The notes beneath the pieces are model-generated. The model did no database searches. It saw nothing but the letters and a program-made list of their open reading frames with translations, and was not told where the DNA came from. Source: Amyloporia xantha (Eukaryota > Basidiomycota > Agaricomycetes > Polyporales > Adustoporiaceae). From it: a DNA stretch of 64,000 nucleotides. Every line of letters begins with the position of its first letter. Position 1 is the first letter of the stretch. Below are positions 22,381-59,157 of this stretch, one piece after another. The stretch spans positions 124,001 through 188,000 of the forward strand of contig JAYKKR010000044.1 in the NCBI GenBank assembly GCA_036971615.1, in the 5' to 3' direction. The position numbers and the translations under genes are program-made.

Positions 22381-23030
22381 GAGCCCATTCAGTCATTATA
22401 GCCTACTCTATAGGGAGAGATATGGGTGAAATTTTTATTACTTAGTAAGGAGAGCGGACGTCGGCCGACGCCATCGCTATAGCCTGCAGTGCAGGGTCGG
22501 CCGAGAGGGTATAATATAGCCTGTAGATACGGCGCGGCCGAGTGCGCCATATTTCCCTGGTATATTCTCGCCTTCAAGTAGTGTCGGCCGAGGGCTATAA
22601 TATAGCCTTTAGATACGGCGCGGCCGACTGCGCCATATTTCTGTGGTATATTCTCGCCTGCAAGTAGTGTCGGCCGAGGGCTATAATATAGCCTTTAGAT
22701 ACGGCGCGGCCGACTGCGCCATATTTCTGTGGTATATTCTCGCCTGCAAGTAGTGTCGGCCGAGGGCTATAATATAGCCTTTAGATACGGCGCGGCCGAC
22801 TGCGCCATATTTCTGTGGTATATTCTCGCCTGCAAGTAGTGTCGGCCGAGGGCTATAATATAGCCTGTAGACACGGTGCGGCCGACTGCGCCATATTATC
22901 GTGGTATATTCTCGCCTGCAAGTAGTGTCGGCCGAGGGCTATAATATAGCCTGTAGACACGGCGCGGCCGACTGCGCCATATTATCGTGGTATATTCTCG
23001 CCTTGAAGTAGTATATTCCGCCCTATTGTT
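22381..23030. repeat. Outer element: left terminal and subterminal repeats
   Basis: The terminal block (22381 to about 22470) carries agggagagatatgggtgaa and gtcggccgacgcc. Six or so units of 86 bases follow, each with gtcggccgagggctata, cgcggccgactgcgccata and ggtatattctcgcctgcaag. CGGCCGA appears twice per unit. 23030-23210 holds nothing recognised. Confidence 0.85.
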
Positions 23031-23209
23031 TCCTTTTCTACGCTTTAATTATATGCATTTCAATAAATCTCATGCTGTATGTATAATAATAATAATGCCT
23101 CGCCATCCATTAGGCTTTGCAATCTGTCATTCATCACGACGTTTCGTGTGTGGTCAGGTCAGTGGTGTGACTACAATTCAAAGCGCAAGGACTGATTGGC
23201 CATTTCCGA

Positions 23210-23550
23210 CGGCTCCATACACCCCACCCAAGACACGCGCAGAGACAGGGCCATCTTACATGTGTCCTTCAAAGGATCCAGCTGTGTGGACCCTTTGTGG
23301 GACACAGATCCAATGGCCATCTCAAGCGGCAGCATCGCGCTATATTCTACCGCTATACATATTTCATGTACGCTAAGGTCATTTGAACTTGATCTACCCA
23401 CCTACCAGCATCTAATACATATTCTCGCCCAACCCAAGACACGCGCAGAGACTGGGCCATCTGATATGTGTCCTTCAAAGGATCCAGCTGTCTGGACCCT
23501 CTGCGGGACACAGATCCAATGGCCATCTCCAGCGGCAGCATGCGCTATGG
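23210..23550. repeat. Direct duplication of about 105 bases
   Basis: The segment starting cccaagacacgcgcagagac (about 23219) and running through ttcaaaggatccagctgt to ggccatctc recurs at about 23443. The 225-base spacing contains a subterminal-type cgctatattctaccgctata piece. No gene is apparent to about 23740. Confidence 0.7.
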
Positions 23551-23739
23551 AATCATGGCGCCACCATGTCCAGACGCGCTATGCAACCATGCGCCACGTA
23601 CCTTGCCTGCCACATTGTGAGGCGTATGGCACGCAGGTGTTATGATGTGCTGGCGCTGTTGGACGGGGCCATTTCATCCTTGCTACCCTGGGTCACCCAG
23701 AGGAATCGAATCACCGTCCACGTTTTGAGAGTACCCCTG

Positions 23740-24700
23740 ATGCTGATGGACAATTCAGCTGCATCCGGAGTACTCATGGCGCGGAGGGCAACTCGATTCC
23801 ACTGGTGAACGTAGAGAGCAAGGAGTTAATGGCTTTATCCAACAGCGCCTTGCATGAATCCCGCATCCATGCAGACCATAAATTTGAAACTCACGTTAGA
23901 GAGTCAGACTCCAGACAGGAAGACCTGACTTATGTTCCTCCGAGCCGCATACCTGTGGCTCAGAAGGACATAAGTCAAATGGGCCTTGTCCGGCGGAAAC
24001 GGGCGCCATCCGATGGCGAAGTGCATGCGCGCTGATGCTCGCTGTTGGGAGATGGAGCTATCACTCGCCAGACAGGGCGCCTTCCTCTGTGTCACTCGGA
24101 GCAGCATACATGCGGCTCGGAGGGCCACAGATGGAAGTTGCGCTGTCCGGCAGCGATGAGCGCCATCCGATGGCGCCATGCATGGCGCGCTCATGCTCAC
24201 CGTGAGATGGCGCTATGGCTCGCCAGACAGGGCGCCTTCATCTATGCTCTTCAGAGCCGCATACCTGTGGCTCCGAAGGTCATAGATGAAGCCGCCTCGT
24301 TCAGCGGCAATATGCGCCATCCGATGGCGCCGTGCATGGCGCGCGCTTCTCGACCTGCATGATTCTTCAATGCTACCCTGGATCAAAGCATCTGAATCGA
24401 ATCGCCATCCAACCATTGTTGGATGGCCATCCGATTCAGCTGCTTGAATACCAAGGCCATTGAAGAATTGGCTGGCGCAGAAGGACGTCATGCATTTATG
24501 CACTCACCGCGCAGACGAAACGGATACATACGCCACCTGAAAACACCCACCTTTGACATGGCGCGATGTCCAAAGAGCATGATTTGCTGGCGTCCTCGAG
24601 CTCGGCCATTCGTCAATGCTACCCCGAAGTTAAGCGTCTGAATCGCATCGCCATCCACATGATTGGATGGTAATGTGATTCAGCCGCTTAAATACAAGGT
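23740..24700. repeat. Hairpin-rich intergenic module of the outer element
   Basis: Three long palindromes follow each other. One joins acttatgttcc and aggacataagt (about 23928-23970), one joins cttcctctgtg and cacagatggaag (about 24082-24137), and one joins ggcgccttcatctatg and catagatgaagccgcc (about 24230-24297). Loops resemble gccgcatacctgtggct. Between them lie gcgccatccgatggcgc boxes and palindromes around catccaaccattgttggatg. The module corresponds, inverted, to 4801-5755 and 14743-15700. No frame is convincing. Confidence 0.65.
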
Positions 24701-24820: not shown

Positions 24821-25575
24821 TCACTCCTCATCTGGCAACAGCACCTCTTTGAAGGCGTCCAACATCCTTGTGAGGTCGCCGGCATCGCGATGGCGGCTCT
24901 CGGCGAAGCGGGTGACCAGGCGTTCGACGTCATCCAATCGATGGCTGACCGCTCTCATATCGCGGTAGTTGACTTGATAGGTGTCGCCGCGACGCTATGC
25001 GGCAATCGATGCAATTTATGTGAATGAATGTGTTGAAAAGGTGGGAGCGGGGTGGCGACTTACTCTGTCATGCAGTGGATACTTCCACCATGCTGGAAGG
25101 TGACTGGGAGGGTCGTCTGGCCAAGTCCACCACGCGGGCTCGGTTTCTGTGCGCAGCTTCTGTAGCTGCAAGGATGGCGGCGAGGCGAGCGGCGTGAACG
25201 GCTGTATCTCGAGGACGTGGATCCGTGGGACGGCCCCAAAGACGGTGGCGTCGCTGATCTTGCGGACGACGTCGGGGAGCTCGACGTCGGTGACGCCGAC
25301 GAGGGCGAGGCGGCCAAGGCAGTCGCGAAGGGCTTCCTGCTGAGCGTCAGAGCAGACACGTTGGGGAAGGCGAAGCTTACCATTTCCATGCGGAGGCCAA
25401 TCTCCCACCGCGCCAAGGTGATGTCGAAGCCAGCCACCTTGTCTCTACCGGCGGCGACAGACATGATGGTCGCTAGCGCCTGCTCGCAGCGCCAGGCATA
25501 GTATGAGATCAGTCGGCGGTTGATAGCGATGAGGCTGGAGAGGGACTGTTCGCGATTCTTCAAGGCGAGAGCCAT
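24821..25575 (-). CDS. W-rich KDZ-associated small protein (outer)
   Basis: Exon 1 runs from MALALKNREQSL (25575) to LARWEIGLRMEM (about 25384). The intron GTAAGC...CTCAG leads to exon 2 (about 25346-25065) with CLGRLALVGVTDVELPDVV, EPAWWTWPDDPP and AWWKYP. A second intron leads to exon 3 (about 24998-24821), RGDTYQVNYRDM to LLPDEE. The frame is open through all three, about 185 residues. It is divergent from the transposase start at 25851 across 275 bases, so both probably share a promoter. No known catalytic motif; helical N-terminus with YYAWRCEQAL and a tryptophan motif. Function unknown. Confidence 0.65.
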
Positions 25576-25850: not shown

Positions 25851-28325
25851 ATGGCCCGCACGAAGAAGCAACATGTCAGTGGCGATGCGGTGTTCGTGCG
25901 TCGCGAAGAACGGCGAACTGCAAGAGGCGCCGTCACATACGTTCCCAAGGAAGCACCGCTACCGCGTGCGCATGTGCCGACAAGCGCATCAAGATTGCCG
26001 TCGAAATCCCCCTCTAAAGCCGCGTCTCATGACGCATATTCAGAACCCGTGCAGGAGCATGTGGTGTTTGACGATGTGATGCCGATGAAGAGTCTGCACA
26101 AGGTGAGTACCGTCGCCTTATTTGGGTCGCTCAATGTCAACGCCGAAGGCGGGGCAGTCGCAGAACGACTTTATGCGCGAATGGCTTCCACTTCGCGATG
26201 TGTATCTAAGCCACATCATCGAGCTAGAAGCTCCACCAGGTGAGAGACGATGCAGCAAATGCGCTGATGCGCATGGCGATTGGCGCTGCTTGGAATGCTT
26301 TGGGCGCCCCGTGTATTGCGAGGACTGCCTGCAGTTGACGCATCGCCGCATGCCGCTGCATCGGGTGGAGAAGTGGGCGGATGGGTTCTTCGAACCGGCG
26401 TGGCTTCGGGAGGTTGGGGTGCGGATGCATCTCGGGCATGATGGCGAACCATGTGTGGATGCGGAGTCCCCGATCACGCCGCTGGATGGGGATGCTGATA
26501 GCGATGGCGAAGACGACGACGTGAGTGACGCCGGGGACAATGAAGAGGATGAAGAGCCAATCAAAGCGGACTCGACGGCGCCGCGAAGTCACTACGCATT
26601 TGACACTTTGACCATTGTAGATGTTACGGGGATGCATAGCCTGGACGTTGTGTGGTGTCGGTGCGATAACAGGCTCACTCGAGACCTGCAACTATTGGAC
26701 ATGGGCCTCTATCCTGGGAGCACCAAGCGGCCACGCACTGCGTTCACATTTCGGGTGTTGGATGATTTTTTGCTTACCAACAAGGAGTGCAAAACCTCGG
26801 GGATGAATTACTACAGCAAGCTTCGACGTGTCACAAACTCCGCGTTCCCGCATTCAGTGCAGGTAAGCCGCTATGTGCATATGAAGCTGTTTTCGCCGTT
26901 GAGAAGGGGCTAGAACCGTTACAGAGAGCTTCTGCGGGTGTCCCGCCAATGGCGAAACCTCAAATACCGCAAATGGCATGGATATGGTCATGGCGCCTCC
27001 AACGCGATACCAGCTGGTGGCCTCGCTTTGGGGTGCCCGGCATGTCCCAAGCCTGGCGTGAATCTCGCTTCCGGATGGCGTGATGACCCCGTACAGTGAG
27101 CCATGTAAGACATTTTTTGGGCGGCATGTGTAACGCGATAGCAGATGGAAGTACATGAGGAGCATCGTAATGGACGGCAACTTTAGCGCGGAGCATCTCA
27201 AGATGCGTCGCCCAGAGGACGACGTCATTCTCAGCGATGGCGACGCTTTCATGGTGGGCGATGACACCTACAAGAAGCATCTCGCGGTCGCCATCGAGCA
27301 TAAAGAGGTCCGTGATCGACTCCTAGTGGATGAACCGTTGGACGCTCATAGCCTATGTAGAAATCCTTCTGTCACGATCATCGCGCCGTCAACCAGGCGA
27401 ATGCAGATCGCCATAACCTTGAAGCCACGGGGATTGGCGCCGCGGCCTGTGCGCGCCATGGGTTTTTCATGCCGCATGCGGTGGTTGATTTCCAGAAAGG
27501 CGAGAGGTAAGTGGTTTGCTATTTCCTTTGTTCACTTACACCCGCCATCAGACAGATGAACATGGATTACGCGCTGAGCGAGGTGCTCGCCACCATGGCG
27601 GGTATCCAGGTGCTGCTGGTGATGTACGACATCATGTGTCAATACGGCATCAATCTCATGAAGCGGTTTGGGGAGAGTGAGTATTTGCACATGCCGCCGA
27701 ACGTGGAGATACGGCGCGGAATAGGCCTGTTTCATGTCCACGGCCATCAAGACACATGCTTTCCTCGCTACTCACCCAACTTTATTCCCGGTGCTGGTCA
27801 GATTGATGGCGAAGTGATTGAAACCCTTTGGGCGCCGTTGAATCTCATTTCGGGTAGCACACGCGGCATGACCACAGCACATAGAAAGGAAGTCATTGAC
27901 GATCACATGAATGATTCCAATTGGAAGAAGTTGACCGGGATGGGTGGGCCAACCTTGACATTGGTGGAGAGGTTGATTGACTGTGGTTTCAACAGCGAAC
28001 ACCCTTGTTAGGAAATGGCGAAAGGCCAAAGCCGGCGCCACGGAGAGCGGGGATGTGTTGGAGTTCATTGAGAGATCGAGCACGGAGGAGCAGCTAGGAG
28101 AGTGGCGAGCCGCTGAGGGCGAGGCGCTCGCCATGCGTGACGCTAAAATCAGCGCGATGGATGTCTTTGACGTGCAGATGAGAAAGGGTGAGAGTGCACA
28201 CTAGAGGGTACGGCCATGATTAATGATGTGGCGCAGCACCCACCCGGATGCAGATCCAACTTCAACTAACGCAAACGGAAACATCGCAACATCGCCATCA
28301 GGGCGTAGCTGCATGGATAGCCACG
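25851..28325 (+). pseudogene. Outer KDZ transposase, 5' portion (interrupted by inner element)
   Basis: The start is MARTKKQ, chosen by alignment with the other two copies. Exon 1 is basic (RREERRTARGAV) and ends at 26102. Exon 2 carries the CxC2-type cluster CSKC...WRCLEC...CEDC followed by HRRMPLHRVEKW, an acidic linker, and VDVTGMH (first catalytic Asp region). Later exons include FSAEHLKMRRPEDDVIL, NADRHNLEATGIGAAACARH, MNMDYALSEVLATM with the hallmark YDIMCQY (27630), and GAGQIDGEVIETLWAPLN (catalytic Glu region). Six or more introns of about 50 bases occur. The exon after 28200 is cut at 28325 in the codons for AAWIAT and resumes at 47273 after one 7-base duplication. The frame would be open otherwise. 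Confidence 0.85.
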
Positions 28326-28420
28326 GAGCCCATTCAGTCACATTCACCTGACTCCTAGGATATATATGCCTGACATTGTCCCCTAAGGCATGGGGCGCCG
28401 GACATCGGCCGACACCGCAG
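28326..28420. repeat. Inner element: left terminal repeat
   Basis: It reads inward from GAGCCCATTCAGTCAC through ctgactcctaggatatatat, gacattgtcccctaaggcat and cggacatcggccgacacc. Paired with 47190-47272. Confidence 0.85.
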
Positions 28421-29876
28421 CTATGGCCCTGCAAAGTGGCCCGGCCGGCCCACCATGTGATTTTGCAGGCGCATAGGCTGGCGCGAGATACCGTCACTCG
28501 ACCGCGACTATCCCGCTCATACTCCCTGGTTCGGCCGATATGCCTGTGGTCTCTGTCTACCAGACTCGCGCCACATCCTCGCGTCAGCCGCGACTGACTC
28601 CCTGGCTCAGCCGATATACCTGTCTCTGCCTGTTAGGCTCGCGCGGGATCCCCGCGACGATGATTCCCCTATTCCATGGCTCGGTCGAAGTGCCCATGTA
28701 CTATACCTGCTAGACTCGCGCAAGATCCTGGCATCAGCCGCGACTGTTTCGCTCCTACTCCCTGGCTCGGCCGATATATCTCTGGTGTCTGCCTGCTAGG
28801 TTTGCTCGGGATCCCCGCGAGCAGTCCTCTCTGACTTCCTGGCTCGGCCAATACATCTGTGGTCTCTGCCTGCTAGGCTCGCGCGGGATCCCCCCCACCA
28901 TACTTCTCCTATTCCATGGCTCGGCCGAAGCGCCTGTGTGCCCTACCTGGTAGACTCGCGCGTCCTTCCCGCAACTATGTGGCTCTTACTCCCTGGCTCG
29001 GCCGATTCAGCTCACCACTCTGCTACCAGGCTCGCGCGAGATGCCCGCGACTATACTGCTCTTGCTCCCTGGCTCGGCCGATTCATTTCAGTACTCTGCT
29101 ACCAGGCTCGCGCGAGATGCCCGCGACTATACTGCTCTTGCTCCCTGGCTCGGCCGATTCATTTCAGTACTCTGCTACCAGGCTCGCGCGAGATGCTCGC
29201 GACTATACTGCTCTTGCTCCCTGGCTCGGCCGATTCAGCTCACCACTCTGCCACCAGGCTCGCGCGAGATGCCCGCGACTATACTGCTCTTGCTCCCTGG
29301 CTCGGCCGATTCAGCTCACCACTCTGCCACCAGGCTCGCGCGAGATGCCCGCGACTATACTGCTCTTGCTCCCTGGCTCGGCCGATTCAGCTCACCACTC
29401 TGCCACCAGGCTCGCGCGAGATGCCCGCGACTATACTGCTCTTGCTCCCTGGCTCGGCCGATTCATTTCAGTACTCTGCTACCAGGCTCGCGCGAGATGC
29501 CCGCGACTATACTGCTCTTGCTCCCTGGCTCGGCCGATTCAGCTCACCACTCTGCTACCAGGCTCGCGCGAGATGCTCGCGACTATACTGCTCTTGCTCC
29601 CTGGCTCGGCCGATTCATTTCAGTACTCTGCTACCAGGCTCGCGCGAGATGCCCGCGACTATACTGCTCTTGCTCCCTGGCTCGGCCGATTTAGCTCACC
29701 ACTCTGCCACCAGGCTCGCGCGAGATGCCCGCGACTATACTGCTCTTGCTCCCTGGCTCGGCCGATTCATTTCAGTACTCTGCTACCAGGCTCGCGCGAG
29801 ATGCCCGCGACTATACTGCTCTTGCTCCCTGGCTCGGCCGATTTAGCTCACCACTCTGCTACCAGGCTCGCGCGAC
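28421..29876. repeat. 76-base subterminal satellite of the inner element
   Basis: From about 29030 to 29876 there are eleven near-perfect units of 76 bases, each with ctcgcgcgagatgcccgcga, ctccctggctcggccgattc and tctgctaccagg. Two variants differ in the stretch after cggccgatt (cagctcaccactctgc against catttcagtactctgc). Older, more diverged units extend left to about 28470. 76 is not a multiple of 3 and no frame contains a stop, so ORFs up to 382 codons run through. They are repeat artefacts. 29877-30103 holds nothing recognised. Confidence 0.9.
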
Positions 29877-30103
29877 ATGTCCGATGCAGCCGCGACCGCT
29901 GCCTTCCTCTCGGTATTTGTACAGCCAGTGGGCCACTGTGTGTTACATATGGTCATGAGGAGGGCGTTGTAGAACTAGCATGCGCCATGAGGAATACATC
30001 ACTCATTCAATACTCATCAGGACAAATCATGAATCGGGCAACTCAATCGCGACGTGTGGATTGACAATCGGCATCAAAGAGGACAGAACACGACATCTAC
30101 AAA

Positions 30104-30861
30104 CTACGCGACGAAAGATCGGGTCGCGGTGGTGGTCGCGGCGCACGGATCCTCCTCCTCAATGGCGTAGAGTACCCGCACGACCCCCCGCTGCTCTGCC
30201 TCCTTCATCTCCAACATCCTCCTCGCAATCGTCTCAGCGTGCTGTGAGTGAAGGTCGGCCCTCCTAAGATGATTCGCCTCCATAGGATCTGTCTCGACGG
30301 ATTCCTATATGTTGGAACATGAGTGACAACAGAATTGATTAAACATCAAGTTGCAAGGGCTTACCGTCTTTGGCGAATCCCACCAATCAGGATTGTCATC
30401 GTCGCGATCGGGCCATTCCCACCACGTTGTGTCGAGATGCGCATCCGAGTCCAAGATTTCCTCCGAAGGTGCCGCGACTGGACAGGCAATCGGTACGGAA
30501 GCCAGCGCTTTAATGTTAAGATCCCATTCAATGCCGAACCTCATGTGCGCGATCGTGGCCTGGATGATCTGAGGTAAAACCACCGCTTTTCCGCCGCCCG
30601 CGAGAACCATCTCTCCGATATTGCCCAATGTGTCCCGCTTTGCACGGATGATCAGCATGGTCCACATCAGAATTGATGAGAATAGCAAACCAATTCCTTC
30701 GTAACCGCGACCTTCCAGCGGTCATATTGAAGGTCTGTCCGGGGGAGGTCCCCAGATTCCATCCGTTCGTTCAGCCTAACGAGGGCTTGCTGTATCCGCC
30801 ATGCCCGGTAGCGGAACATCTGGGTCGCAACTTTTTCAAGATGGCGTGCAGAAGAGGACAT
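30104..30861 (-). CDS. W-rich KDZ-associated small protein, inner copy 1
   Basis: Exon 1 runs from MSSSARHLEKVATQMFRYRA (30861) to WKVAVTKEL. Exon 2 (about 30640-30362) has GEMVLAGGGKAVVLPQIIQA and TWWEWPDRDDDNPDWWDSP. Exon 3 (about 30304-30104) has ESVETDPMEANHL and HAETIARRMLEMKEAEQRG. The layout matches the outer copy, with the tryptophan motif conserved. Exon 3 predicts a charged helix. No frameshift was noticed. It is the first of two tandem copies in this element. Confidence 0.6.
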
Positions 30862-31125
30862 TGTACGGTGACAGGAAATACAATGACACTGAAGCCCTTC
30901 CCGGAAAACCTCGTCTAATATTTAGCATGTCTCAACTCTTCGCCTCGTGGCAAACGTGTTTCCCACACACGTGTGCGCCTCATGGTCGTGAAGCACTGGC
31001 GGGAAGGCGGTGATGCGTATGATAGGAAGCCATTTATCTTGAGAAATTTGATTGACAGATCGGCTTATAGCCTTCTATCGTGTCTAGTGAATTGTAGCGC
31101 AGTTGTCGCGGCTTGGGCCAACTAG

Positions 31126-31270
31126 CATTGCTGTTTGACGAGGTCGCGCAACGGTCGAGACAAGCGCGACACAAGGAGTTGACTACGTATTCAAAACATC
31201 ATCAACCAGCGCGCATTCTTAGCCGATCACTTCAGAAGCAGCCAAAGAATACGTCAATATAGACACGAAG
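31126..31270 (+). pseudogene. Relic of KDZ transposase exon 1
   Basis: Degenerate similarity to exon 1 of the transposase at 32546: gacaagcgcgacacaaggag, gttgactacgtattcaaaac and tagccgatcacttcagaagc parallel that exon's codons for the VEKRTTRGVEYVFKD region and the following Ser-rich tail. It sits upstream of W-rich copy 1 in the divergent position expected of a transposase start, so the gene pair was duplicated in tandem and this half decayed. 30862-31125 is the presumed old promoter; 31271-31525 holds nothing recognised. Confidence 0.55.
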
Positions 31271-31525
31271 TCACACCTGACCATTATTACGTATCCGCGA
31301 CAATTCAACAAATACTCCATGGAATATCTTAGACTTCCGCGACAGTCGCATCAGCGCTGAGCGCGGCAGCGGCACCTCTTGACGTCATAATCGGGCATGT
31401 GGCATTCAGCAAGAATTGCCCTCCCTGCGCGCTCGCGGAGTGATGACAGACATTATCAGCGTATTATGACTCTCGCGCTCTCAAGAACACATGTATTTCC
31501 TATGCAACGTAAGATGTAATGAAAG

Positions 31526-32321
31526 CTACGAATCGGATGACTGGGCAGCAGCAGCGGCGGGAGCGGCATCCTTAACGGCGTCGAGGACGCGGAGGATCCC
31601 AAGCTTGTCAGCCTGCCTCATCGCGAGCATCCTCCGCGTGATTATCTCCAAGTCCCTGGAGAGCTCCTCTGCCTTACTGAGGGCATCAACGTCGAATCTG
31701 TCCGCCACTGCATACTCCTGTGTCGTAAACTGTAAGCTAACGTTTGGCTACATCCAGTCCAATTCAACATACCCCTGTCGGCGACTGCCACCATGCCGGT
31801 TTTGAGGGGTCGCGGTCATCCCACTCCCACCACATAGATCCCAGATGGTCCTCCGTAGACAGGATGTCATTAGGGAGGCGGTAAAGGGTGCGTTATTGGA
31901 ACCGACGCGAGCGCGTGGATGTCCAGATCCCAATCCGCGCCGAATGTCGTCTGCTCGATCAGCGCCTCAATAATCTGAGGCAATTTGACCGCCTTCCCGC
32001 GACGCGCGAGGACGATCTCCCCAAACATAGTCGCGTTTCGCGCTGCATATAGGGTGGTCAGCAGAGTCAGTGTGGAGTCGGAGAATGATAACGCACGAAT
32101 TCGTGGGTAAGGGCCACTTTCCAGCGGTCGTATTGTAGTTGATTTCGCGGCAGATCTCCGACAGTGAGGCGATGGTTCAATCTTATCAGTGCCTGCTGGA
32201 TGCGCCACGCGCGATAGCGGAACATGCGCGTCGCGGTACTTTCGAAAGTTGCTCCGCGGACACCGGGCGGAAGCTTGAGGCGGCATGGCAGCGGAAGACA
32301 TTGAAAGTCGATGGGAGGCAA
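31526..32321 (-). pseudogene. W-rich KDZ-associated small protein, inner copy 2 (frameshifted)
   Basis: Exon 1 from 32321 includes TRMFRYRAWRIQQALIRLNH and WKVALTHEF. Exon 2 includes GEIVLARRGKAVKLPQIIEA and DWDLDIHALASVPI, then meets a stop after PLPPP near 31883. The continuation MWWEWDDRDPSKPAWWQSP is one base out of phase. Exon 3 (31708-31526) ends AAPAAAAAQSSDS. A single-base change breaks the frame unless it is a sequencing error. It pairs divergently with the transposase at 32546 across 224 bases. Confidence 0.6.
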
Positions 32322-32545
32322 TCAACTGCGAGCCCAGCCTTTACATGTCTAGTCTAATATTTACCATATCTCTCCTGCTCACCTCGTGGCAGCGTCAGCT
32401 GATGTTCGCAAACACGTGTGCACCTCATGGTCGCGAAGCATAGTGCATGAGTCATAAGCAGGGCCGCGCAAGAGCCATTCCTTTATCTCCATCAACATAA
32501 CAATAGGAGCGTTGTTGAGTCATTCCCATTTTATTCCCTGCAGCT

Positions 32546-36122: not shown

Positions 36123-36194
36123 CAGTCTGCTCCATTGTTTCTCTCCTTCGATCAAGGCATTACATAAGTCTCATTTCCCGGAGATGTGCCTGCT

Positions 36195-44777: not shown

Positions 44778-45032
44778 GATCTGTGGAAGGAGCAAGTTTG
44801 TACTAAGAGCAAGAGGAAAGAAAGGGTGGTGGAGGAGGAGGAAGAAAGGACTTGGATGCGCGCGACCTTCAAGTGCTGGACGGGTTGCTAGTTATGTCAG
44901 CAACGGGTCATCTTCTTGTCACGTGCACGTGGTGAAGTCGAATCGAGCGCGACCTCCTTGACTTACCTGCGTTGTTGTGGACATTCTCGAGTACACATCC
45001 CTCCGTCCACGAACATCAATAGCGCGAGCCAT

Positions 45033-47189: not shown

Positions 47190-47272
47190 CGACGTCCGGC
47201 GCCCCATGCCTTAGGGGACAATGTCAGGCATATATATCCTAGGAGTCAGGGGTACAGTGACTGAAAGGTGTG
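47190..47272. repeat. Inner element: right terminal repeat
   Basis: Reverse complement reads CACACCTTTCAGTCACTG, then ctgactcctaggatatatat and gacattgtcccctaaggcat, pairing with 28326-28420. The 7-base duplication agccacg follows (47273-47279). Confidence 0.85.
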
Positions 47273-48436: not shown

Positions 48437-49702
48437 TCAACCATAAGTCCACTCCATCCAGTGCGGTGCCTTGACATTCATCGCGGCATGCACTGAGTCC
48501 CTCATAAAATAAGCGTAGCATATGCGCTCTCCATCGCATCTCTGAACGCCATGGCGCAGAAGCTTTCCGCAAAGCGCAACTACGCTACCCGCCTTGTAGT
48601 CTATAGCGATATTTGGACCATCCAGCTGCATTTCCAATGCGCCGTAGCTCCCTACCGTGGTGAGAAGGTCGAACCACTGCTTGCGCGAGTTTTTATCGCG
48701 GTGTAGCGGCGTCTCGCGATTGCTGATGACCTGAACGCCATTGAAGATCGAAGACCAAGCGCTTACTATTGCGGGATACTCCACTTCGCCAAGAAGCGAC
48801 TCCATGCACGTATGTCCCGCAGCATACAGGTCGGGATGCATGACGGACATCATGGCGGATAGGATGGTGGCTGATTCACGGATGGCGGTCAACCATCGCC
48901 ATCCACTCTGGCCATCTTGATCGCGTAAGCTCGCCGAAGGCAGCATTGGGTCCAATGGGCCCTGGATGTATGCGCCGTCATTCGCCAGTCATCAGAGTTA
49001 ACGGATCGTCAGCGTACCGTGTGACCCAGCGCGTGCCATCCTGGAGACAGATTGACAGTCCCCGGAGGTGTGGTGCAGGTTGATCGATCGCGGAAATATG
49101 CTTCATGGTTTCGCCAACTGACCCCCGGGGCTTTACGCATCAGTTGTGTTGATAGGTGGGCCGTCGCCAATTGTATCTCTCTCTGCCGACACAGCGTAGT
49201 GAGCGCGGTGCATGGCGGAAGATGAATGCGCCCACCTGGCGATTCACATGAAGGACGCCCGGAAGCACCCATGCTAGGATGCGCGAGTGCTGGTCGAGGA
49301 GCACGCAGGGTTCATCTAGAACCACGGTGGTGTCTGGGAGGAGAGGCGGCCATTTAGTCTTGAGCTGCGCCTCCAGATTCACGTTCTGTCCGGTGTTGCC
49401 CACGCCTATAGCATCAGAATAGCGGTCAATGTCCCAGGATAAGCGCACTACTTCCCGGTCAGCGCAGAATGAGTAGATGCCCACAGCATCCAAGAGTACA
49501 CACCAGGTTTGATATATGCCTTTGCGAGCTGGTGCGCGATCTGGCTGCATTCGACGACGATATCGGCGCGGATATGTGTGGGAGGCTGTGGGTTTCTCGG
49601 TTGTCCGGCTGCATTCCGAAGCTTGTGTAGCCAAAACTGAAACATATCGCGCATGCAAGCTGCCAATGTGTCGCTGAGCTCCAAGCCGCTGCCCGCTATC
49701 AT
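48437..49702 (-). CDS. TET/JBP-family 2OG-Fe(II) dioxygenase (outer)
   Basis: Four exons: about 49702-49503 (MIAGSGLELSDTLAACMRDM); about 49449-49235 (VRLSWDIDRYSDAIGVGNTG, LDQHSRILAWVLPGVLHVNR); about 49178-49020 (FRDRSTCTTPPGTVNLSPGW); and about 48970-48437 with the core. The last holds NGVQVISNRETPLHRDKNSR (HxD), LTTVGSY, KAGSVVALCGKLLRHGV (distal His) and ERICYAYFMRDSV (Arg). All catalytic residues of the TET/JBP fold are present and I found no frameshift, unlike the inner copy. Family members oxidise methylated bases in DNA; nuclear action on 5-methylcytosine is expected. It converges on the transposase end (48369) and diverges from the HMG-like gene. Confidence 0.82.
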
Positions 49703-50153: not shown

Positions 50154-53100
50154 ATGGGAATAGCTATCCTGCAGGCATATCTAGACAAGATCCCAGAGCA
50201 AATAGAGCGATGGCGCAACACCAAAGGCACTGCGAGGGCACCCATTGTCGATGAGGCTGTCAATATTCTCATGGAACAATTCGCAGAGCTGACAGATAAA
50301 AATGGCCTGAAAAGGTCAAACCAACAGTTCATGGCATTGTCATCTTCGTCATTCACACATTTCTATAGTCCCTGGGGACCTATTTCAGCAACCACTACCG
50401 AATCGTAGAACCCCAGGTGCCCATCCCTGGAACGAAAAACGGTCAGCGAGGGATATGTATCAAGAGGAGCACAAAACAGAGCTGCTAAGGGTGGCCAACG
50501 AAAGGACGGGAGGACGAGGTCTGGCCCACCAGGAGATAGGCGCATACACCAAGGTAGTGAGCGAGTATTGGGGCAAACTGGATGAGGACGCAAAGGCGGA
50601 CTACCAGATGAAGGCGGATGCGTTCAACAATGACGCCAAAGAGGTCAAGGCTGGATCTTCGGCGTGAGTGGGAGCGCGACCTTTGTGCTAAGTTAACGGC
50701 AGCTGATGGCGACGCAGGAAAGCGGACAAGGAGCTCATTCCGTTTCTGAGGAAATACGCTCGAGAGGCATACCGACGCCATGGTGTCAGGATCTTTACGT
50801 TGAGTAGCTACAAATCTCCTGATGGGAGAGTCGTCATTCAGGAGTGAGCAGGCAATTTGTATCGCCTCTCACCGCTCTGACCGCTTTTCACAGACACGAC
50901 TTCAACGATGAGATGGAGAATGGAAAAGCCTTTTCCAAGGTGGACGATTGGCACGCAGATACGATGGTCAAATGGGCCAAGTACAGCACAGAGGCATTTG
51001 ATAGCAATCGCGAGGCGAGCGTTGACAACGGAGAGGGAACGTCTCGCGGCACACGGCGAGAGCTGCTGGTCGACGATGGCGGTCTCCCGTTGATACCGCC
51101 AATGGATGGCGAGGATGCGCCATCCCTGCCTGTGATGAAATCCATGATCAGAGACTTTCTGTCTACTCACTACCGTAAGTCTTGATCCACACGGCGCTCA
51201 CAAAGACGCTGATGGCGCCATAGAACGGGCTGCAGGAAGCGCCAAAGAGAAGTGCCCTTGGCGCGCGCTCAAAGTGCGTGGGGCTGAATTTATAGAAGCA
51301 GGAATGGTGCCAGACGGCTTCCAATTCGACGATCCGTCGCATATGGTCAGGAAGGACATCATCGCGGTCCTGCATCATTGGAGAGCGGCGCAAGAGGCAA
51401 ACAAGGGGCAGTGCGCGTTCCGCTTCAAGGCATACCTGAAGAGCAGGGGGGACGAGGATTCGGAGCTAATCCCTGCTGTGTATGAGGCGGCGAGAGCACC
51501 CAAAGGCGCTAAAGGCAAGGCGGGCCCCAAAAAGAAGAAAAAGAAGGCGGTGAAAAGCGGCAAGGGAAAAGGCGTGCAACGTCTCAGCACCGATGACGAT
51601 AGCGCCGTGGACGACGACACCGAGCACGAGACTTTCAATCTGGACATCGACGTCGGGTCAACTTCCGACGAAGATGATGACAGCGAAGATGCAAAGGCGC
51701 CGCCCCCAATTGGGCGCTGCTTTCACGTAGACGGCGTCAGCAATGGCTGGAGGCGGCATCGCCATCGCCAGAATTTCGCGTGATCGTGGACGCGCTGCCT
51801 CGCATGATGGTAGTAACTTCATTTTTCTCCGTAAACTAAGGCTTACCTTGCGAGTGATAGAGTGGGCTGAAGACGACAAAGCGGGCACCGGAAGGCGCCG
51901 ACTGGGCGACCTGGCACAACCCGCATCGACACTTGTCCTATATGGTTCATCGCCACGCCCATGGGCTCGATCCAGTGCTGAAGTGGCTCGACTCGAAGCC
52001 TTATTTGAACAAGTCCGGCAGGCTGACAGGGGACGTCGGCATGATTGAACAAGTGCTCCTCGTGATCGCCATGATAAGCCGCGATCTGACGGCGGCACAG
52101 TTCGCCTTCCAGGATCCCGACGCCCGCCTTCGGACATTCCACGCCATGTCAGCGAGAGCGCCATACCCTTCGCCGTGATTGCCCAGAGGCTCGACCCGCA
52201 TGTATCATCGTTGTGCGCGCTGGTGAAGCAGGCACAATCTGTGCAAGGCGACGCGCCATCCATGGAAGGTAGCTCTGTCACCCGCAGTAGCACTGCGGCC
52301 GCGGCGCAGCCAACACCTTTGGAGGCCCCACCACCGGCGTTGAAATATGGTCCACCACCGCCCCACGTTCCCAGACAGGGGAAGCCATCACCTCGCCCTC
52401 CCATGATGCCCACTGGGAATCTCAACAAGGGTCCACCTCCCCCACTCCGCCCGAAGCCTCGCCATTTGCAAACCCTGCGGGCGGAACAGGAGAGTCGTAC
52501 GCCGGACCCGCCAGCGGCATTGGCGAGGGAAGCCGCGCCAATCCTCACATCCCCTAAGATAAGGCGATCGCGAGACGCGCATAATGGCCAAGTAGCTCAG
52601 CAATCCAGCTCGCCGTTGCCGGAACCTCTGCGAGGCACGCAAAAACATTCGCTTCCGTTTCCAGTCACAGGAAAACCGCCTCCAGCAAGGCCGCTAATGA
52701 CCACGGGAAGATCGGTCTTTCCATCCATACCTAAGCGCGCCTTGGGTATGAGACCGCGTCCACAACTAGAAGAGAGACCGCCATCAATTGACGGCGCACC
52801 GCCTTCCTCGCCAATGGCGCCAGGGCGTGCACCGCCATCCTCCCCCATCGCGCTCAATGACGCAATTGTCCGCCGCGGGAGTATGGATTTCTCCTCCTCT
52901 CCACCTATTGCGATGAATCAGCTCTCACCCGTTCGAGATATGAGGGGCCTACAGGTTCATTTCTCCGACCGTGAAAATCATGACAGTGAAGACGAGAGCG
53001 ACGGCGAGGCCAATCGTGGTCCTTCTCCCTCACTTCCTGTGCCAAAGCGCAAGACACGCCAAACAGCTCGGCAGGCAAAGGAGATCAATATTCAGGCACT

Positions 53101-53431
53101 GCCAACGGCAGGCGGGTCCTCGATCACGGGTGCTCTCAACGACATGAAGGTCGCCACCCACACTCGTCAGAAGACAAAAGCTAAGGAGGAAAAGTTGAAA
53201 AAGCGAAGTCACCGCGTCAGCGAAGAGGAGGAAGAGGAGGAGGAAGCAGAGAAACCACCCCAACCTCGTGAAAAGCGAAAAAAGGCGGGTCGCTCAAAGC
53301 GGGCTCTGGCGGAGACTTATAGCGATGGCGAGGAAGAGCAGGGCGAGCCTGCCCCCGCCATTCGTAGGTCATCGCGCAAGACAGGTAGGGGAGCTCAGCC
53401 CCGACCCACTAAAGCGCGTGGTCGCCGTTAG
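50154..53431 (+). CDS. HMG-box-like, low-complexity KDZ cassette protein (outer)
   Basis: Starts MGIAILQAYLDKIPEQIERW. After an intron comes MYQEEHKTELLRVANERTGG ... VVSEYWGKLDEDAKADYQMK, the HMG-box-like pattern (aromatic, basic, W..L...K..Y). Then KADKELIPFLRKYAREAY, GLPLIPPMDGEDAP, FDDPSHMVRKDIIAVLHHW (51328), a poly-Lys stretch, an acidic run, LDPVLKWLDSKPYLNKSGRL and IEQVLLVIAMISRDLTAAQF (51970-52105), and a long Pro-rich, basic tail to KARGRR (53429). All blocks occur in the same order in the inner gene. A possible frame break lies near 51720-51950, where exon limits are unclear. Probably nuclear from its basic tail. Confidence 0.6.
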
Positions 53432-53654: not shown

Positions 53655-56426
53655 CTAAGGCGAAGCGGGAGGCATCTCGGCGTCCTCGACAGCGACGGGT
53701 GATGTTGCGGCATCAGGCTCTCGCTCCTCCGCGGCCACGCTCGCCATCCCGTCGTCGTCGATCTCCAAGGAGAAACGCCTGATTGAAGGTGTGGAGCCAC
53801 CGGCGGGCGTCGACAGAGCTTCATTCGTGAAGTCCGATTGATCTCCTACAGAGCCACGCTCTGAGGTAGACCACGAAATGGGAGTGGCTCCCTCATGAGC
53901 GCTGTCCATGATCGCCCTCGCCTTGCGCCGTCGTTGCGCGTCCTGTTCCGCCTTCTGCACGAGCTCCACCGACAGATGCGCCTTGTCCAATAGCTTCTCG
54001 GCCTCCCGCGTCGTTGTGGCGAGCGACGTCACGGCGCACTGACTCAAACTGCGCGATGAGCCCCTGTAATCTCGCCTCACCTGCCTCAATGCCCGCCATC
54101 GCCTGCCGCGTCCTCTCGCTTCTCATCGCGCACGTTGTCCATCAACGTGTCCACGCGCACCTCCATGTTCGCGACTTGCGCACCAAGGCGATCCATCGCC
54201 ATGTTCTCCTTGGCTGCACGCAGATCGTCCTGCAGAACCGTGACCATCTCCTCGAGCGCGGCGATGCGAGCGACCGAGTCCTCAGAGCGCACATCTTGCA
54301 GAGTCTGCTCCGCGCCTTCAACTCTTGCCAGTAGGCCGCCAATCTGCCCTCGGCGTTATCAATGCGCTCGGTCATGTTGACCTGCTGCCTGTTGATGGCG
54401 AGCAGTGACTGCTGGAAGTTGTCGACCATGCTACCGAAGCGGTCTTGCCACGCCGTCATTATGTTGATGTTCTTCTCGAGTCGGTGGCCTTGCTCAGTGA
54501 GGTACGCCGTAAATGGCTGGAAATGAGACAGCTCCTGGTCCTGCGCGTAGCGCCCTTCATCCATGGCGGTGGGGTCCTTGGAGAATCCTACGTAGTGGTG
54601 GTACTCGCCATGGTGGTCTGGCAGCCACACATTGACTTGGTCAGTTGATCGCGCCGTCCAGAAAGAGTGAAGCCGACTTACATTTTACCTCCCAGGCCTG
54701 AGCCCAAGCCGCGACGAGCGATCGCTCGAGCTGCTGGCCTCTGCCTCCTGGAGAGGACGGTCCGCGCGCTCCTTGCCCTTCCCTTTAGCCACCGCTGGAG
54801 GTGGCTTCCCAACCCACGCCTTCATCGAGCTGAGCGACGTCTTCGGGAGCGGCGCTATTGGGCGGGACGCAGCCGCATCGCTAGTCGCTGACGCCACCCG
54901 CAGCTGGCTGTCCACCTCCGCGTCGTCCTTCGCATCGACATCCGCGCTACCCGCCTTGCCATCGTCCTTTTCCCCTTCTTCTTCATCCACATCCATCTCA
55001 TCGCTCGCCTTCGATTCCGAACCCTTCGCCGCCGCTTTGCCCCGCTTGCCTCTATCCTCCACAAACTCCTTCCTCTCCTCATCCCAGCGCGGTGGAGGAG
55101 GCTTGATGCCATCGGCAAGGCTGTTCTTGATGACGTCCTGATACTTGCTTGCCAGGACTGCACCGTAGGGGCCCCTGATCGGATTGCCACTCAGGTTGTG
55201 TGGCACGATCGAGCAGCCTATCTTGCGCTTCAGGCAGCGCATGCAACGCCGACCGTCCACGACAGCAAGCCTGCATTCAGCTTTGGCCTTGGCGCAATTT
55301 CCGCAAGGCATCGCCTGAAGGCATGTCAGTCAGCATCGCTTGCCGCGCATCTGGTAAACGTACTCACCGAGACAAATGTCTCCGTCTCCTCCATCTCCTC
55401 ACTCTCGCCTTGAGCGTCCTCGTCCATGTCGTCAGCTTCGGGCGCCGGCGACGCGCTTCGCCTTTCCCTTTCCCTTCCCCGTCGATGATCCCGCCTTCGC
55501 CTTCGACCGCGTCTGCCTGGCGTCATCATCCTTTCCCGCAGGAGACTTGCGCGATGAAGCCTTCTCGTTCGTCTTCGACGTCGATGGCCCCGCCTTCGTC
55601 TTCGTCCGCGGCTCAGACTGGGCGGCCGTCGTTTCCTCTCCTGCCGCTTTCGCAGTGGTGGTCTTGACTCCGCCCTTGGATGCCGCCTTAGTTCCCGGCC
55701 GTCGTTGCAGCCCCTCCGCGCCGTGGCTTCTTCGTTACTGGTGCAGCGATGACGACGCCCTCATCGCCGTCCGTCGCTGGTGTCGTTCCCTTTGACCTTC
55801 TAGAGGCCGCCCCTGCGTCGTCATCCGCCCCCTTCTTCGCCACTTTCCCTCGACTCCCGCCTGCCTCTGCCTCCTCCGTCACCCCACTTGGCCCCGCAAC
55901 TCCATCCCCACCCAGCGCAACCTCGCTCGTGCGCTTGCGCAACAGCGCTGCTGAGCCGTTAGTGATGACGTGGCGTATGGTTTCGCAGTGCACTCACCTT
56001 TCCACCAAAGGTTGCCCCCGAGGTCTTCGGCAATGTAATCGCCATTCCACACGTATTTGGAGAGGCCATGGCTTTGAATGGCGGGGTCGTCAACCTTGAT
56101 GGCAGTCAAGTCCACTCCGCGCTTCTTGTGCGACGCCACCGTGTATTGCGCCATGGCGCTGACCAACAGCGGCGGCACTTGTAATCCCTCGCGGTGTTTT
56201 CCCAGCGCCTTGATCTTCGCGAAGATCGATTGCTAGAGGCGCCATTATACAGACTCAGCGCCACAGTGCTCACCCTGATTGTGTTACAATCACTTACCAC
56301 TTCCTCCCAGAAGTTGCTCTCAAACACCTTGTACTTCGCGTCGCGCTTCCCGGGCAGAAACTTCAGCGCCTCTTCCAGGCGCACTGCGGCGATGATGATG
56401 TCGCTGTTGATGCTGGAGGCGGACAT
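53655..56426 (-). pseudogene. Zn(II)2Cys6 coiled-coil protein of KDZ cassette (outer), several frameshifts
   Basis: Exon 1 (56426 to about 56298): SINSDIIIAAVRLEEALKFL, FESNFWEEV. Exon 2 (about 56232-55996): LQVPPLLVSAMAQYTVASHK, LSKYVWNGDYI, WWKG. A Lys/Pro/acidic region follows (55940-55380), with a frame change near 55715. The zinc cluster CGNC-6-C-9-C-MRC-6-C lies at 55306-55210. An acidic and coiled-coil region runs from about 55000 to 53655, with frame changes near 54345, 54105 and 54030. The final frame ends EDAEMPPASP. The same spacing of six cysteines as in the inner copy supports a real binuclear cluster. The repeated shifts suggest decay, or errors in GC-rich DNA. Divergent from the SP-repeat gene across 243 bases. 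Confidence 0.65.
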
Positions 56427-56669
56427 GGTGGTAGAAGCAAAGCGAGATGGGATTTGACAGCTGTGGTGATGGCGGTGGTGGTGGTGGTGGTGGTAGAAGA
56501 AGAGACGAAGTCAGACCCACGCGGTGCATCGCGTTGGTTGATGGCGGGCGCCTGGCGGAAAGATCCGCGCCCGTTCGATCGGCACCGCACGTGTTGCGCT
56601 CATGGGTATATTAGATGCCTCTAGACGAACTTGGCACGTTTCCGCATTCCTTCCGCCTTGCTTTCAACC

Positions 56670-58389
56670 ATGTCGGAACACGCAGACGAGCTAGGTGAGC
56701 ACATCATGTAGATATCCTCACGCCAACCTGCGCTCACTCCCCTCAGCCCGCCAAATACTAGACTTCGACTCCTCGCCCATCAGAGGTGATGCCCCTCGCC
56801 CTACCCTGGACTTCGAGTCCTCGCCCATCAGAGGGGATGTCCCTCGCCCAACTCTGGACTTCGAGTCCTCGCCCATCAGAGGGGATGTTCCTCGCCCAAT
56901 TCTGGATGTGGTGTCTTCGCCTTCGCCTTCGCCTTCACGCACTCTGCCACCAGCGCGTACGCTTGGCGATTTGTCCGCATCGCCATCGCCATCCCCGCCG
57001 CCGCTAAACTTTCGCTTTGCTATGTCGCCAACGCCTGACCTTGCCAACGTTCAGGGGGATCTGCACAACGTAGCACTCCTCTCGATATGCCGCCACCGCC
57101 GTCCGCGCCTACTTCAAAAAGACGTGTGGACCTCGTCTTCCCCCAATTAACGTCCCCTCAACTACGTAGGCCCACAATGCAGTCGGCATCTTCCCAAGAT
57201 ATAGATCTCTTCCGTCCATCGCTCAACATTTCGCCCTCACCGCCGAATACCTCGCTATCAAGACAACCGTTGGATTTCACCTCGCAATCGCGAATGCAGA
57301 CCTCACCTTTTAGATCCGCCCTGGACCTTTCGCCATCGCAGGTAAACACCCCGTTGCACCGTCCACAGCTTGACCTGGAGGCATCTCCAGAGCGAGTGCA
57401 CAGCGCCCAGCCTACCTTCGAGTCGCCTGTCCCTCATCGTGCACACCTCGACTTGTCGCCATCGCTGTCTCCAGTCCTCCAGCTCCCGCGATCAGCTGGA
57501 TCTCCCGGCCACTCCATCCCCAGGTATGTCCACACTCATGTTTTTAAACCTATTTCCTACTGACACTCCATTCCTCTACTATTGAAGATAGAGGCGCGCC
57601 TATGGATGGCGTCGTGGATGGCGGCGTGGACGGCGGCGTGGACGGCGGGATGGACGGCGGGATGGACGGCGCACTTGATCACGACCTTGCGCATAGCCAA
57701 GATGGCGATGTTGACATGGCGGATGAGCGCCTCATCCAACTCAATCGCCAGGTATTTTGCCTCGCTTTCTCTTGCCTTTGTGTTTGAATACTCATAGACA
57801 GTACCTTGACATTATAAATGAGGTGTTGGACGAGCACAACATACCCCGCGGTCCTCTGGTAAGTGAAAGCCCTCCATCGCCTTCATCGTCATGCTGATAC
57901 CACTCCAGGACTTGGAGGCACACCGTCAGCGGCTCAGAGACCGTGGCCAGGATCTCCCTCGTACCTTCGCCCTCGCTCCCATTCTGGATCACGACGAGGA
58001 CATCATTGACTCAAGTAAGTACAGCGAAATTCACCCTTTCACCATACTTAAATATGCAAAGAATTGGAGAATCCATACTTTGATGATGGCAGAGGCCACT
58101 CCCCCAATAGCGCCATGAACGCCATCGAGATTAAATTCGGTATGACACTGCGCTCGCAATTTGCCATTCGCTAAAGAAAACAATAGAAGGTTTTCCTCGC
58201 GAGCGCGAAAACTTGATGTTCCTTCAAGCGCAATCCCTGAGCGAGAGGTTACGACGTATAGAAGAGGACATCGACGTCGCCAACGCAATCTTGAAGCTGC
58301 ACCAGCCCATCAAATCCTTGCTCACAGCCAAGCCACCGCAGGACGGGACCACTGGGGTTGAAGCCATGATGTGGAATGGCGAGATATAA
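56670..58389 (+). CDS. SP-repeat coiled-coil protein of KDZ cassette (outer)
   Basis: The first exon MSEHADEL is followed by GTGAGC. The second carries three near-identical 51-base repeats encoding LDFESSPIRGDVPRP, then FRFAMSPTP-type motifs. Near 57080 the frame changes by one base, continuing as LNISPSPPNTSLSRQPLDF and similar. Then come a Gly-Asp repeat (DGGVDGGVDGGMDGG), a short exon LDIINEVLDEHNIPRGPL, DLEAHRQRLRDRGQDLPRTF, and a last exon with LRRIEEDIDVANAILKLHQP ending MMWNGEI. It is homologous to 11424-12538 and more distantly to 45033-46191. SPxxDF repeats could be phosphorylation or docking sites. Function unknown. Confidence 0.6.
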
Positions 58390-58589
58390 TTCGTTATACA
58401 GTATATACTCCGATGTCGTTGGCATCAAGGACAAAATGTAGTCACAGAATATTGAGTTGCTTTACCAATATACGCGAACACATGACCTGGCGGCGCCGAT
58501 ACCGCGCCATGAAAATACCATCCCAGTGGGCATACCAGGCCCATAAGCGCGGCGCGCCATGATGCGCGATATGAATACCACTGCATCCA

Positions 58590-59150
58590 CCATCGGCCGA
58601 CGCTACTTGAAGGCGATAATATACCACGGAAATATGGCGCACTCGGCCGCGCCGTGTCTAAAGGCTATATTATAGCCCTCGGCCGACGCTACTGGAAGGC
58701 GATAATATACCACGGAAATATGGCGCACTCGGCCGCGCCATGTCTACAGGCTATATTATACCCTCTCGGCCGACACTACTTGAAGGCGATAATATACCAC
58801 GGAAATATGGCGCACTCGGCCGCGCCGTGTCTAAAGGCTATATTATACCCTCTCGGCCGACACTACTTGCAGGCGAGAATATACCACAGAAATATGGCGC
58901 ACTCGGCCGCGCCGTATCTACAGGCTATATTATACCCTCTCGGCCGACGCTACTTGAAGGCGAGAATATACTACGGAAATATGGCGCACTCGGCCGCGCC
59001 GTATCTACAGGCTATATTATACCCTCTCGGCCGACCCTGCACTGCAGGCTATAGCGATGGCGTCGGCCGACGTCCGCTCTCCTTACTAAGTAATAAAAAT
59101 TTCACCCATATCTCTCCCTATAGAGTAGGCTATAGTGACTGTATGGTGTG
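58590..59150. repeat. Outer element: right subterminal and terminal repeats
   Basis: Five to six units of 86-88 bases contain ctcggccgacactacttg, aggcgataatataccac and atggcgcactcggccgcgcc, the inverse of 22470-23030. The terminal block follows from about 59060, with gtcggccgacgtccgctctc and ttcacccatatctctcccta, ending tgactgtatggtgtg. aaaaaag follows. Confidence 0.85.
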
Positions 59151-59157
59151 AAAAAAG

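Follow-up and report, generated by a model that had tools for sequence, protein, structure and literature searches.

The 64,000-nt stretch of Amyloporia xantha DNA analysed here (the window) belongs to a 46.8-Mb genome of 60 contigs, cited below by C-numbers, and contains two large transposons, one of which, the inner element I, lies within the transposase gene of the other, the outer element O. Both carry a KDZ transposase, a TET/JBP dioxygenase and four further genes, a six-gene cassette shared by four families of elements, O, E, I and J. We consider it fairly probable that these are KDZ elements with a common cassette that would escape silencing by means of their TET enzyme and would act with proteins of their own on the repeat arrays at their ends. 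Our survey describes KDZ elements that bear TET, are complete and have been mobilised repeatedly, and whose accessory genes appear to have been passed on and kept by selection together. It proposes partners for a TET enzyme carried by a transposon and offers a defined DNA motif, TCGGCCGA; the aiming of transposon TETs at their own element thereby moves beyond speculation and becomes a directly testable question.

Two nested elements and their six genes

Read directly, both O and I have the tips GAGCCC and CACACC, the first bases of O being GAGCCC at 22381 and its last bases GGTGTG at 59150. Each element is flanked by a 7-bp target duplication, AAAAAAG for O and AGCCACG for I, so that the ends and duplications put forward in the initial annotation are borne out to the base. 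When the insert and one duplication are subtracted, O measures 17,816 bp. An intact copy, O2, is present in the same genome at C12:2434433-2453001 (loci L125 and L126); it is 99.5% identical to O in both halves (11,891 and 5,846 aligned bases) and differs from it in the copy number of the left repeat array. At the I insertion point O2 reads GGATAGCCACGGGCATGAAG with a single AGCCACG, and its transposase model runs in one frame straight across. Since this site is unoccupied in O2, I was inserted into an exon of a pre-existing O transposase gene, which confirms that the exon had been split by I and resumes in frame beyond it, as initially proposed.

22381..59150, plus strand: outer element O, family O (tips; identity to O2)
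28326..47272, plus strand: inner element I, 18,947 bp, within the O transposase exon (tips; unoccupied site in O2)
22374..22380, no strand: O target duplication, left, 7 bp, AAAAAAG (direct reading)
59151..59157, no strand: O target duplication, right, 7 bp, AAAAAAG (direct reading)
28319..28325, no strand: I target duplication, left, 7 bp, AGCCACG (direct reading; O2 comparison)
47273..47279, no strand: I target duplication, right, 7 bp, AGCCACG (direct reading; O2 comparison)

The cassette consists, in order, of a W-rich gene (minus strand), the transposase (plus), the TET gene (minus), an HMG-like gene (plus), a Zn2Cys6-like gene (minus) and an SP-repeat gene (plus). The genes listed here are simple splice models built for this analysis, and their ends are uncertain; the start of the O transposase is approximate and was transferred from the O2 model.

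24821..25575, minus strand: O W-rich gene, 213 amino acids (aa), 3 exons (gene model)
25880..28325, plus strand: O transposase, 5' part, CxC2 and KDZ (Pfam CxC2 4e-27, KDZ 3e-41), broken by I
47280..48369, plus strand: O transposase, 3' part, in frame again after the right duplication (match of open reading frame, ORF; O2)
48437..49702, minus strand: O TET/JBP dioxygenase, 366 aa (Tet_JBP 2.3e-17)
50455..53431, plus strand: O HMG-like gene including the G5 block, with low-complexity C-terminus and uncertain start (ORF match, gene model)
53655..56426, minus strand: O Zn2Cys6-like gene (gene model, cysteine pattern)
56670..58389, plus strand: O SP-repeat gene, 428 aa (gene model, profile comparison)
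30104..30762, minus strand: I W-rich gene, copy 1 (gene model)
31526..32286, minus strand: I W-rich gene, copy 2, tandem duplicate (gene model)
32546..36122, plus strand: I transposase, 873 aa, CxC2 and KDZ (Pfam KDZ 1.2e-46, CxC2 9.4e-25)
36195..37303, minus strand: I TET/JBP dioxygenase, partial model (Tet_JBP 5.8e-16)
38212..41742, plus strand: I HMG-like gene with G5 block, 970 aa (gene model)
41868..44777, minus strand: I Zn2Cys6-like gene, 869 aa (gene model)
45031..46191, plus strand: I SP-repeat gene, 228 aa, with [ST]P-[IV]-D-L repeats (gene model, profile comparison)

Comparison of the ORFs of O and I gave collinear same-strand matches for five of the six genes, with E-values between 7e-81 (a transposase piece) and 7e-5 (the W gene). 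The exception is the SP gene, for which O/E and I/J match by profile comparison of the C-terminal part only (probability 93.9, E 1.6e-7); this C-terminal block, together with [ST]P-rich repeats, links the SP genes of all four families. The claim of the same six genes in the same order and strand in both elements therefore stands as regards collinearity and has to be amended in one respect, namely that I has two tandem copies of the W gene. Likewise, the HMG gene named initially is present in both elements and also contains a second conserved block, here named G5. HMG and G5 are counted as one gene because their matches fall in an open frame of identical 989-aa length at two J places (C26 and C25) and because the two blocks share one open frame in the J copy that was fetched.

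The KDZ transposase domain and the CxC cysteine cluster (PF18758 and PF18803) scored over the cut-off in O and I. For the TET model of O2 the closest solved structures are 8jkk (E 5.1e-32) and CcTET 7vpn (E 5.9e-32), and alignment to CcTET shows the HRD iron motif, the distal His and an Asp matching Asp337 of CcTET to be present, with Ser where CcTET has Gly331; the roles of these residues and the remark on Gly or Ser at the 331 position are taken from the main text of Kojima 2025 (PMC12730594). The same HRD, His and Asp residues are visible in the I model. Judged by the iron motif, the distal His and the Asp337 equivalent, the predicted dioxygenases of O and I are of the AG type of TET/JBP. 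The labels HMG-like and Zn2Cys6-like were given because of patterns conserved in the families and a three-helix model. Zn2Cys6 proteins follow the spacing CX2CX6CX5-12CX2CX6-8C, and CX2CX6CX8-9CX2CX6C is found in all four families, in E within an open frame outside the E gene model; for the HMG-like region, helices are predicted at residues 2-20, 30-43 and 46-69 with modest to low confidence (pLDDT, the predicted local distance difference test score, 65.5).

SUMO-interacting motifs (SIMs) were considered as a general feature of the SP proteins, an idea that was dropped. They are enriched in the I protein, where four sites compare with a mean of 0.23 in shuffled sequences and the count was reached in none of 2000 shuffles, and show no clear excess in O or J (count reached in 177 and 114 of 2000 shuffles, respectively); the truncated E model has no such site.

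The cassette, its families and its ends across the genome

A genome-wide search returned 174 KDZ matches (150 of them listed), 114 Tet_JBP (79 over the cut-off), 93 HMG, 101 Zn2Cys6 and 98 G5 matches and, for two W queries, 92 and 117 matches. Split matches and the two W lists were merged by hand, which left 89 HMG anchors and 100 Zn, 89 G5 and 132 W places. The markers W, KDZ, TET, G5 and Zn were each required on the expected side and strand of the HMG anchor and at the expected distance, with distance windows chosen after inspection of O and I; SP was not counted. All five partners were found in order and strand at 54 of the 89 anchors and at least four at 70, compared with means of 0.19 and 0.51 for random anchors (200 rounds) and with 0/89 in either class when the anchor strand was flipped. 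At most one partner was found at four of the 89 anchors, and wrong-strand matches within the same windows were limited to eight for W and one for KDZ, with none for TET, G5 or Zn. By family, there are 49 anchors for O (29 complete), 11 for E (8 complete) and 29 for I and J together (17 complete). The genes are thus not scattered within their own genome; scattering in other genomes was the outcome which the initial annotation had seen as fatal to the cassette. Almost all above-cut-off TET matches (77/79) have an HMG or KDZ match no more than 4 kb away, HMG is found within 7.5 kb of 73 of the 100 Zn places, and KDZ within 4.5 kb of 95 of the 132 W places. Nested or broken copies and J paralogues of W and Zn account for some of the gaps, and KDZ elements devoid of the cassette for others. 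Cassette copies also cluster, 54/89 HMG anchors lying within 60 kb of another (contigs C34, C12, C23, C21 and C4), possibly at centromeres or in other regions rich in transposable elements.

The unit exists in many near-identical copies, and their ends support its mobility. The tips GAGCCCATTCAGTCA and CACACCWTWCAGTCA occur 110 and 132 times genome-wide, and their reversed controls not at all. Pairing of the first 100 listed occurrences of each tip gave at least 68 pairs, 32 of which span 16.5-19.8 kb. Flanks were read for 43 of the 68 (all 26 on C1-C13 plus 17 more of the 18-kb class), and an exact 7-bp duplication was present in 34, a longer one in none; in the 16.5-20.3 kb class the fraction was 27/33, and with swapped partners flanks matched in 3/1806 cases. 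The J-family tip GAGCCCGTTCAGTCA is found at 16 places, from which nine J pairs were assembled by hand, six of 23.4-24.3 kb and three longer, with a 7-bp duplication in eight. Tips lacking duplications had likewise been named as grounds for giving up the cassette, and duplications were found in both sets. One J pair, on C31, encloses an I copy, so that nesting is seen a second time. For all 40 anchors of the O, E and I families that fall within pairs shorter than 26 kb, the tip upstream of the genes is GAGCCC, and in the nine J pairs it is the CACACC tip that lies upstream, a polarity opposite to that of O, E and I. Twenty tip pairs have no HMG match, 18 of them spanning 3.5-9.1 kb, and these short same-tip elements are read as deletion derivatives. 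In the three swapped-partner matches, an element shares its 7-bp flank with the opposite end of a different element (C6:594304 and C6:654682; C12:2529082 and C12:2420981; C14:657570 and C21:10069), which looks like real exchange or inversion between element copies.

Repeats abound in the window, among them repeated blocks and pieces of copia and gypsy elements, and such surroundings might raise the suspicion of a chance pile-up of unrelated repeats. Order, strand, spacing, duplications and the empty site refute this explanation, to which we attach a practically negligible probability.

A second feature of the ends is the 8-mer palindrome TCGGCCGA, of which about one copy is expected in the window from base composition. 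There are 36, all within element ends; in O, I and J the motif is multiplied to form arrays.

22461..22935, no strand: left subterminal array of O, with 7 TCGGCCGA copies at intervals of mostly 86-87 bp, the first at bp 81 from the tip
58593..59070, no strand: right subterminal array of O, with 7 TCGGCCGA copies, the outermost at bp 81 from the tip
28405..29841, no strand: left subterminal array of I, with 16 TCGGCCGA copies at intervals of mostly 76 bp, the first at bp 80 from the tip
46602..47041, no strand: I right subterminal repeats, 166-bp units, 2 copies of TCGGCCGA (46771, 46937)

All occurrences lie near ends in O2 (23/23), I (18/18), E (2/2) and the fetched part of J (10/10, the J left end not included); the motif was discovered as an end-enriched word, so that independent evidence comes from its occurrence in J and genome-wide and not from O2, E and I. 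Genome-wide, 830 array steps of 72-92 bases were counted against none in the control, and the 50 array places listed all lie within about 1.3 kb of a known tip. In eight of the ten ends read, the terminal plan is the tip hexamer, CAGTCA and then TCGGCCGA at bp 80-81; the I right end has TCGCCCGA in that position, and an end at 7179 has TCTGCCGA. The array units of O, I and J differ in sequence and have retained the motif, each copy of which includes two CpGs.

In every gene compared, the closest pairs are O with E and I with J (O2 and I gave no W alignment), which implies that the genes of the cassette have been inherited together. The ratios of nonsynonymous to synonymous substitution rates (dN/dS) were obtained by Nei-Gojobori counts on aligned open-frame pieces from which poorly aligned parts had been excluded, so that the values lean low. 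Between O2 and E they are 0.39 for W (70% identity over 456 aligned codons), 0.19 for the transposase, 0.16 for TET, 0.17 for HMG, 0.38 for Zn and 0.31 over 235 codons of the terminal plus-strand SP region; between I and J the corresponding values are 0.22, 0.08, 0.10, 0.09, 0.36 and, over 46 codons of the terminal plus-strand region, 0.37. For G5, dS is saturated, and pN/pS is 0.46 and 0.49. The cassette genes are thus shown to be under purifying selection, with dN/dS below 0.4 wherever measurable, and the cassette seems, from these alignments, to evolve together as a unit. The initial suggestion that synteny reflects one selected mobile unit finds support, within this genome, in dN/dS values well below 1, in the conserved order and in the duplications.

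Could the accessory genes rather be a cargo of benefit to the host, carried by a large mobile element in the manner of Starships? The elements are indeed large and multi-genic. However, the same genes are present in all four families, the ends and 7-bp duplications suit KDZ elements, and the changes in content that were seen, in a survey in which not every copy was catalogued, are a doubled W gene and an extra Zn2Cys6 paralogue. Two W matches occur in 20/29 I/J anchors, a single one in 36/49 O and 10/11 E anchors, and the extra paralogue, about 11 kb upstream of HMG, in 10/29 I/J anchors. We regard the cargo explanation as very improbable. Identity with Starships, judged without a search for a tyrosine-recombinase captain, is unlikely in view of the KDZ transposase and the 7-bp duplications. 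An example of a J element with the extra paralogue and the reversed tip polarity is found at C4:151962-176290.

Relation to known elements

KDZ elements were reportedly linked to TET and to a divergent HMG protein by Iyer et al. in 2014, an association said to be one of neighbourhood rather than of complete elements. As in those elements, O and I have a KDZ transposase with CxC cluster, a linked TET gene and an HMG-like gene; we know of no W-rich, Zn2Cys6 or SP-repeat genes, or end arrays, in that work.

Complete TET-bearing Kyakuja transposons with 7-bp duplications have been described from Agaricomycetes in the main text of Kojima 2025 (PMC12730594), where escape from methylation silencing is proposed for them. 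They share with O and I the KDZ transposase, the AG-type TET/JBP, the 7-bp duplications and the host class. The duplication is given there as 7 bp for Kyakuja and 8 bp for Zisupton and Dileera (PMC12730594), and the duplications found here agree with the former, none being longer. Two Laccaria Kyakuja families are reported to have 5'-CA..TG-3' termini and no terminal inverted repeats (PMC12730594). In contrast, O and I have the tips CACACC and GAGCCC, one end with CA and the other with GA, and long inverted subterminal repeats; having been reported for two families, the CA..TG feature is treated here as variable. O and I are thus most likely cut-and-paste transposons of the KDZ superfamily and of its Kyakuja lineage, a placement graded no higher because their termini differ from CA..TG and because it was made without a tree of reference transposases. 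The Cryptococcus elements KDZ1-KDZ3, with KDZ transposase, inverted repeats and demonstrated mobility, are comparable but measure about 9-11 kb, have CxC1 rather than CxC2 and produce duplications of 8 bp (KDZ1) or 4-8 bp, and the main text of that report mentions neither 'dioxygenase' nor 'HMG' (PMC12810828).

The kind of element is therefore already known, and the six-gene cassette is a new version of TET-bearing Kyakuja-like elements. The initial statement that no such cassette had been described fails as far as complete TET-bearing Kyakuja elements are concerned (PMC12730594) and holds for the six-gene content, of which no description was found, supplements aside. 'HMG' and 'zinc' do not occur in the main text of Kojima (PMC12730594), where accessory genes of Kyakuja are left undescribed, and in the literature searched, mostly at abstract level, the six-gene unit, the four families, the palindrome with its arrays and the reversed J polarity were not found.

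Proposed silencing escape, end arrays and neighbouring sequence

TnpA of Spm/CACTA and VANC of Vandal elements are element-encoded proteins that act sequence-specifically on the silencing of their own element. They belong to another transposase superfamily, and the function shown for them would apply to O and I by inference; we know of no dioxygenase in either system. Vandal families are also mentioned by Kojima (PMC12730594).

For O and I, we propose that the CxC2-KDZ transposase would cut and insert at staggered 7-bp sites and that the AG-type TET would oxidise 5-methylcytosine on element DNA, allowing the element to escape methylation silencing. The terminal TCGGCCGA arrays, which contain CpGs, may be bound by the Zn2Cys6-like and/or HMG-like proteins; demethylation would thereby be concentrated there and assembly of the transposition complex promoted, with the W-rich and SP-repeat proteins as putative accessory partners. 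Zn2Cys6 proteins usually recognise CGG triplets as half-sites, and for this reason the zinc-cluster protein of the element is proposed as the binder of TCGGCCGA. Self-targeted demethylation is an attractive notion that we infer from the above. Its fully self-contained form, in which the Zn2Cys6 or HMG protein would read TCGGCCGA and recruit the element's own TET, keeping ends and promoters unmethylated, and in which tip polarity would be a second code, strikes us as rather doubtful.

It could also be that the accessory genes have their role in transposition as such (binding of the ends, synapsis, choice of target) and that TET is diffuse in the nucleus and not aimed at the element. TnpA of Spm-type elements is a precedent for an accessory role in transposition itself, and arrays of one palindrome at both ends would suit a platform for the transposition complex. 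On the other hand, TET has been kept between the transposase and the HMG gene and is under selection, although this does not by itself require targeting; we rate the alternative as possible, if not probable. Still less likely, in our opinion, is that TET produces a signalling base, 5-hydroxymethylcytosine (5hmC) or another, that would control binding to the element or its expression, and that methylation removal is not involved. The two CpGs inside each TCGGCCGA speak for it, as do the discussion of other TET/JBP products and of a regulatory role for 5hmC itself, and the action of CcTET on N6-methyladenine too, in the main text of Kojima (PMC12730594).

Several observations weigh against the proposed cassette elements with TET-based escape. 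Nine of the 43 tip pairs lack the 7-bp duplication (two of the nine match in six of seven bases), as does one J pair; the motif is changed at the I right end and in one array copy, and the E family has no TCGGCCGA array. In Pfam scans of O, I and J, HMG_box_2 reached E 0.027 in O (15.6 bits against a cut-off of 22.4) and Zn_clus 0.059 in O and 0.032 in I, under the cut-off, with neither found in J. About half of the 150 listed KDZ places are without a nearby TET or HMG (74 have TET within 4 kb, 72 HMG within 8 kb), and just 10/35 of the weaker TET matches are near HMG; KDZ- and TET-like sequences thus also exist outside the cassette. Scans of viral contigs and genome contigs found no relatives outside the own genome. 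With about 8000 candidates scored in each case, the Zn protein search gave no match and the HMG search one, P0001, apparently a J-family copy (81% identity over 82% of the query, near-identical in long stretches) that is probably from the same or a very close species. The TET search gave eight matches, including proteins of Grifola frondosa and Wolfiporia cocos at 41-45%.

In O, I and J the CpG observed/expected ratio (CpG o/e) is 1.04-1.10; E has 0.91 and a neighbouring copia element 0.30. Singleton C>T changes in eight O copies affect 3/568 CpG bases and 10/1410 other C/G bases, so there is no excess of recent CpG decay, a point in favour of the proposal. As another point against the proposal, 14 of 16 KDZ loci classed as cassette-less have a CpG o/e of at least 0.93, at least one of the 16 (L010) being an O copy misclassed by distance. 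CpG retention was consequently dropped as a sign of TET protection: since most cassette-less loci are high too, the ratio shows no TET effect. Two cassette-less KDZ loci, L015 (C12:3143658) and L006 (C54:23928), have ratios of 0.17 and 0.51, unlike the other 28 KDZ loci examined; that they and L017 are decayed O relics was rejected, as none aligns to O2 in blastn.

Further element ends lie on both sides of O. Downstream, 59733-60075 is an orphan O-like G end with three copies of TCGGCCGA, for which no matching duplication was found; it adjoins gypsy-type coding sequence (60076-64000, minus strand; reverse transcriptase, RNase H, integrase and chromodomain). Upstream, a G end and a C end (7179-7186 and 10852-10859) face outward from a 3.68-kb spacer with CGACTGC on both sides. 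A reading of the ends at 10859 (C) and 60075 (G) as one older element was rejected, because their flanks differ and they look E-like and O-like, respectively. The copia-type element at 16862-22208, with a 1452-aa open frame (RVT_2, rve, gag), has its low CpG o/e of 0.30 despite long terminal repeats that are 99.6% identical, and six copies of at least 96% identity, itself included, are present genome-wide (901-base probe). Contigs C16 and C24 show the same G-to-C spacing as at 7179-10859, which would be expected of a short E-like derivative inside a tandemly repeated unit.

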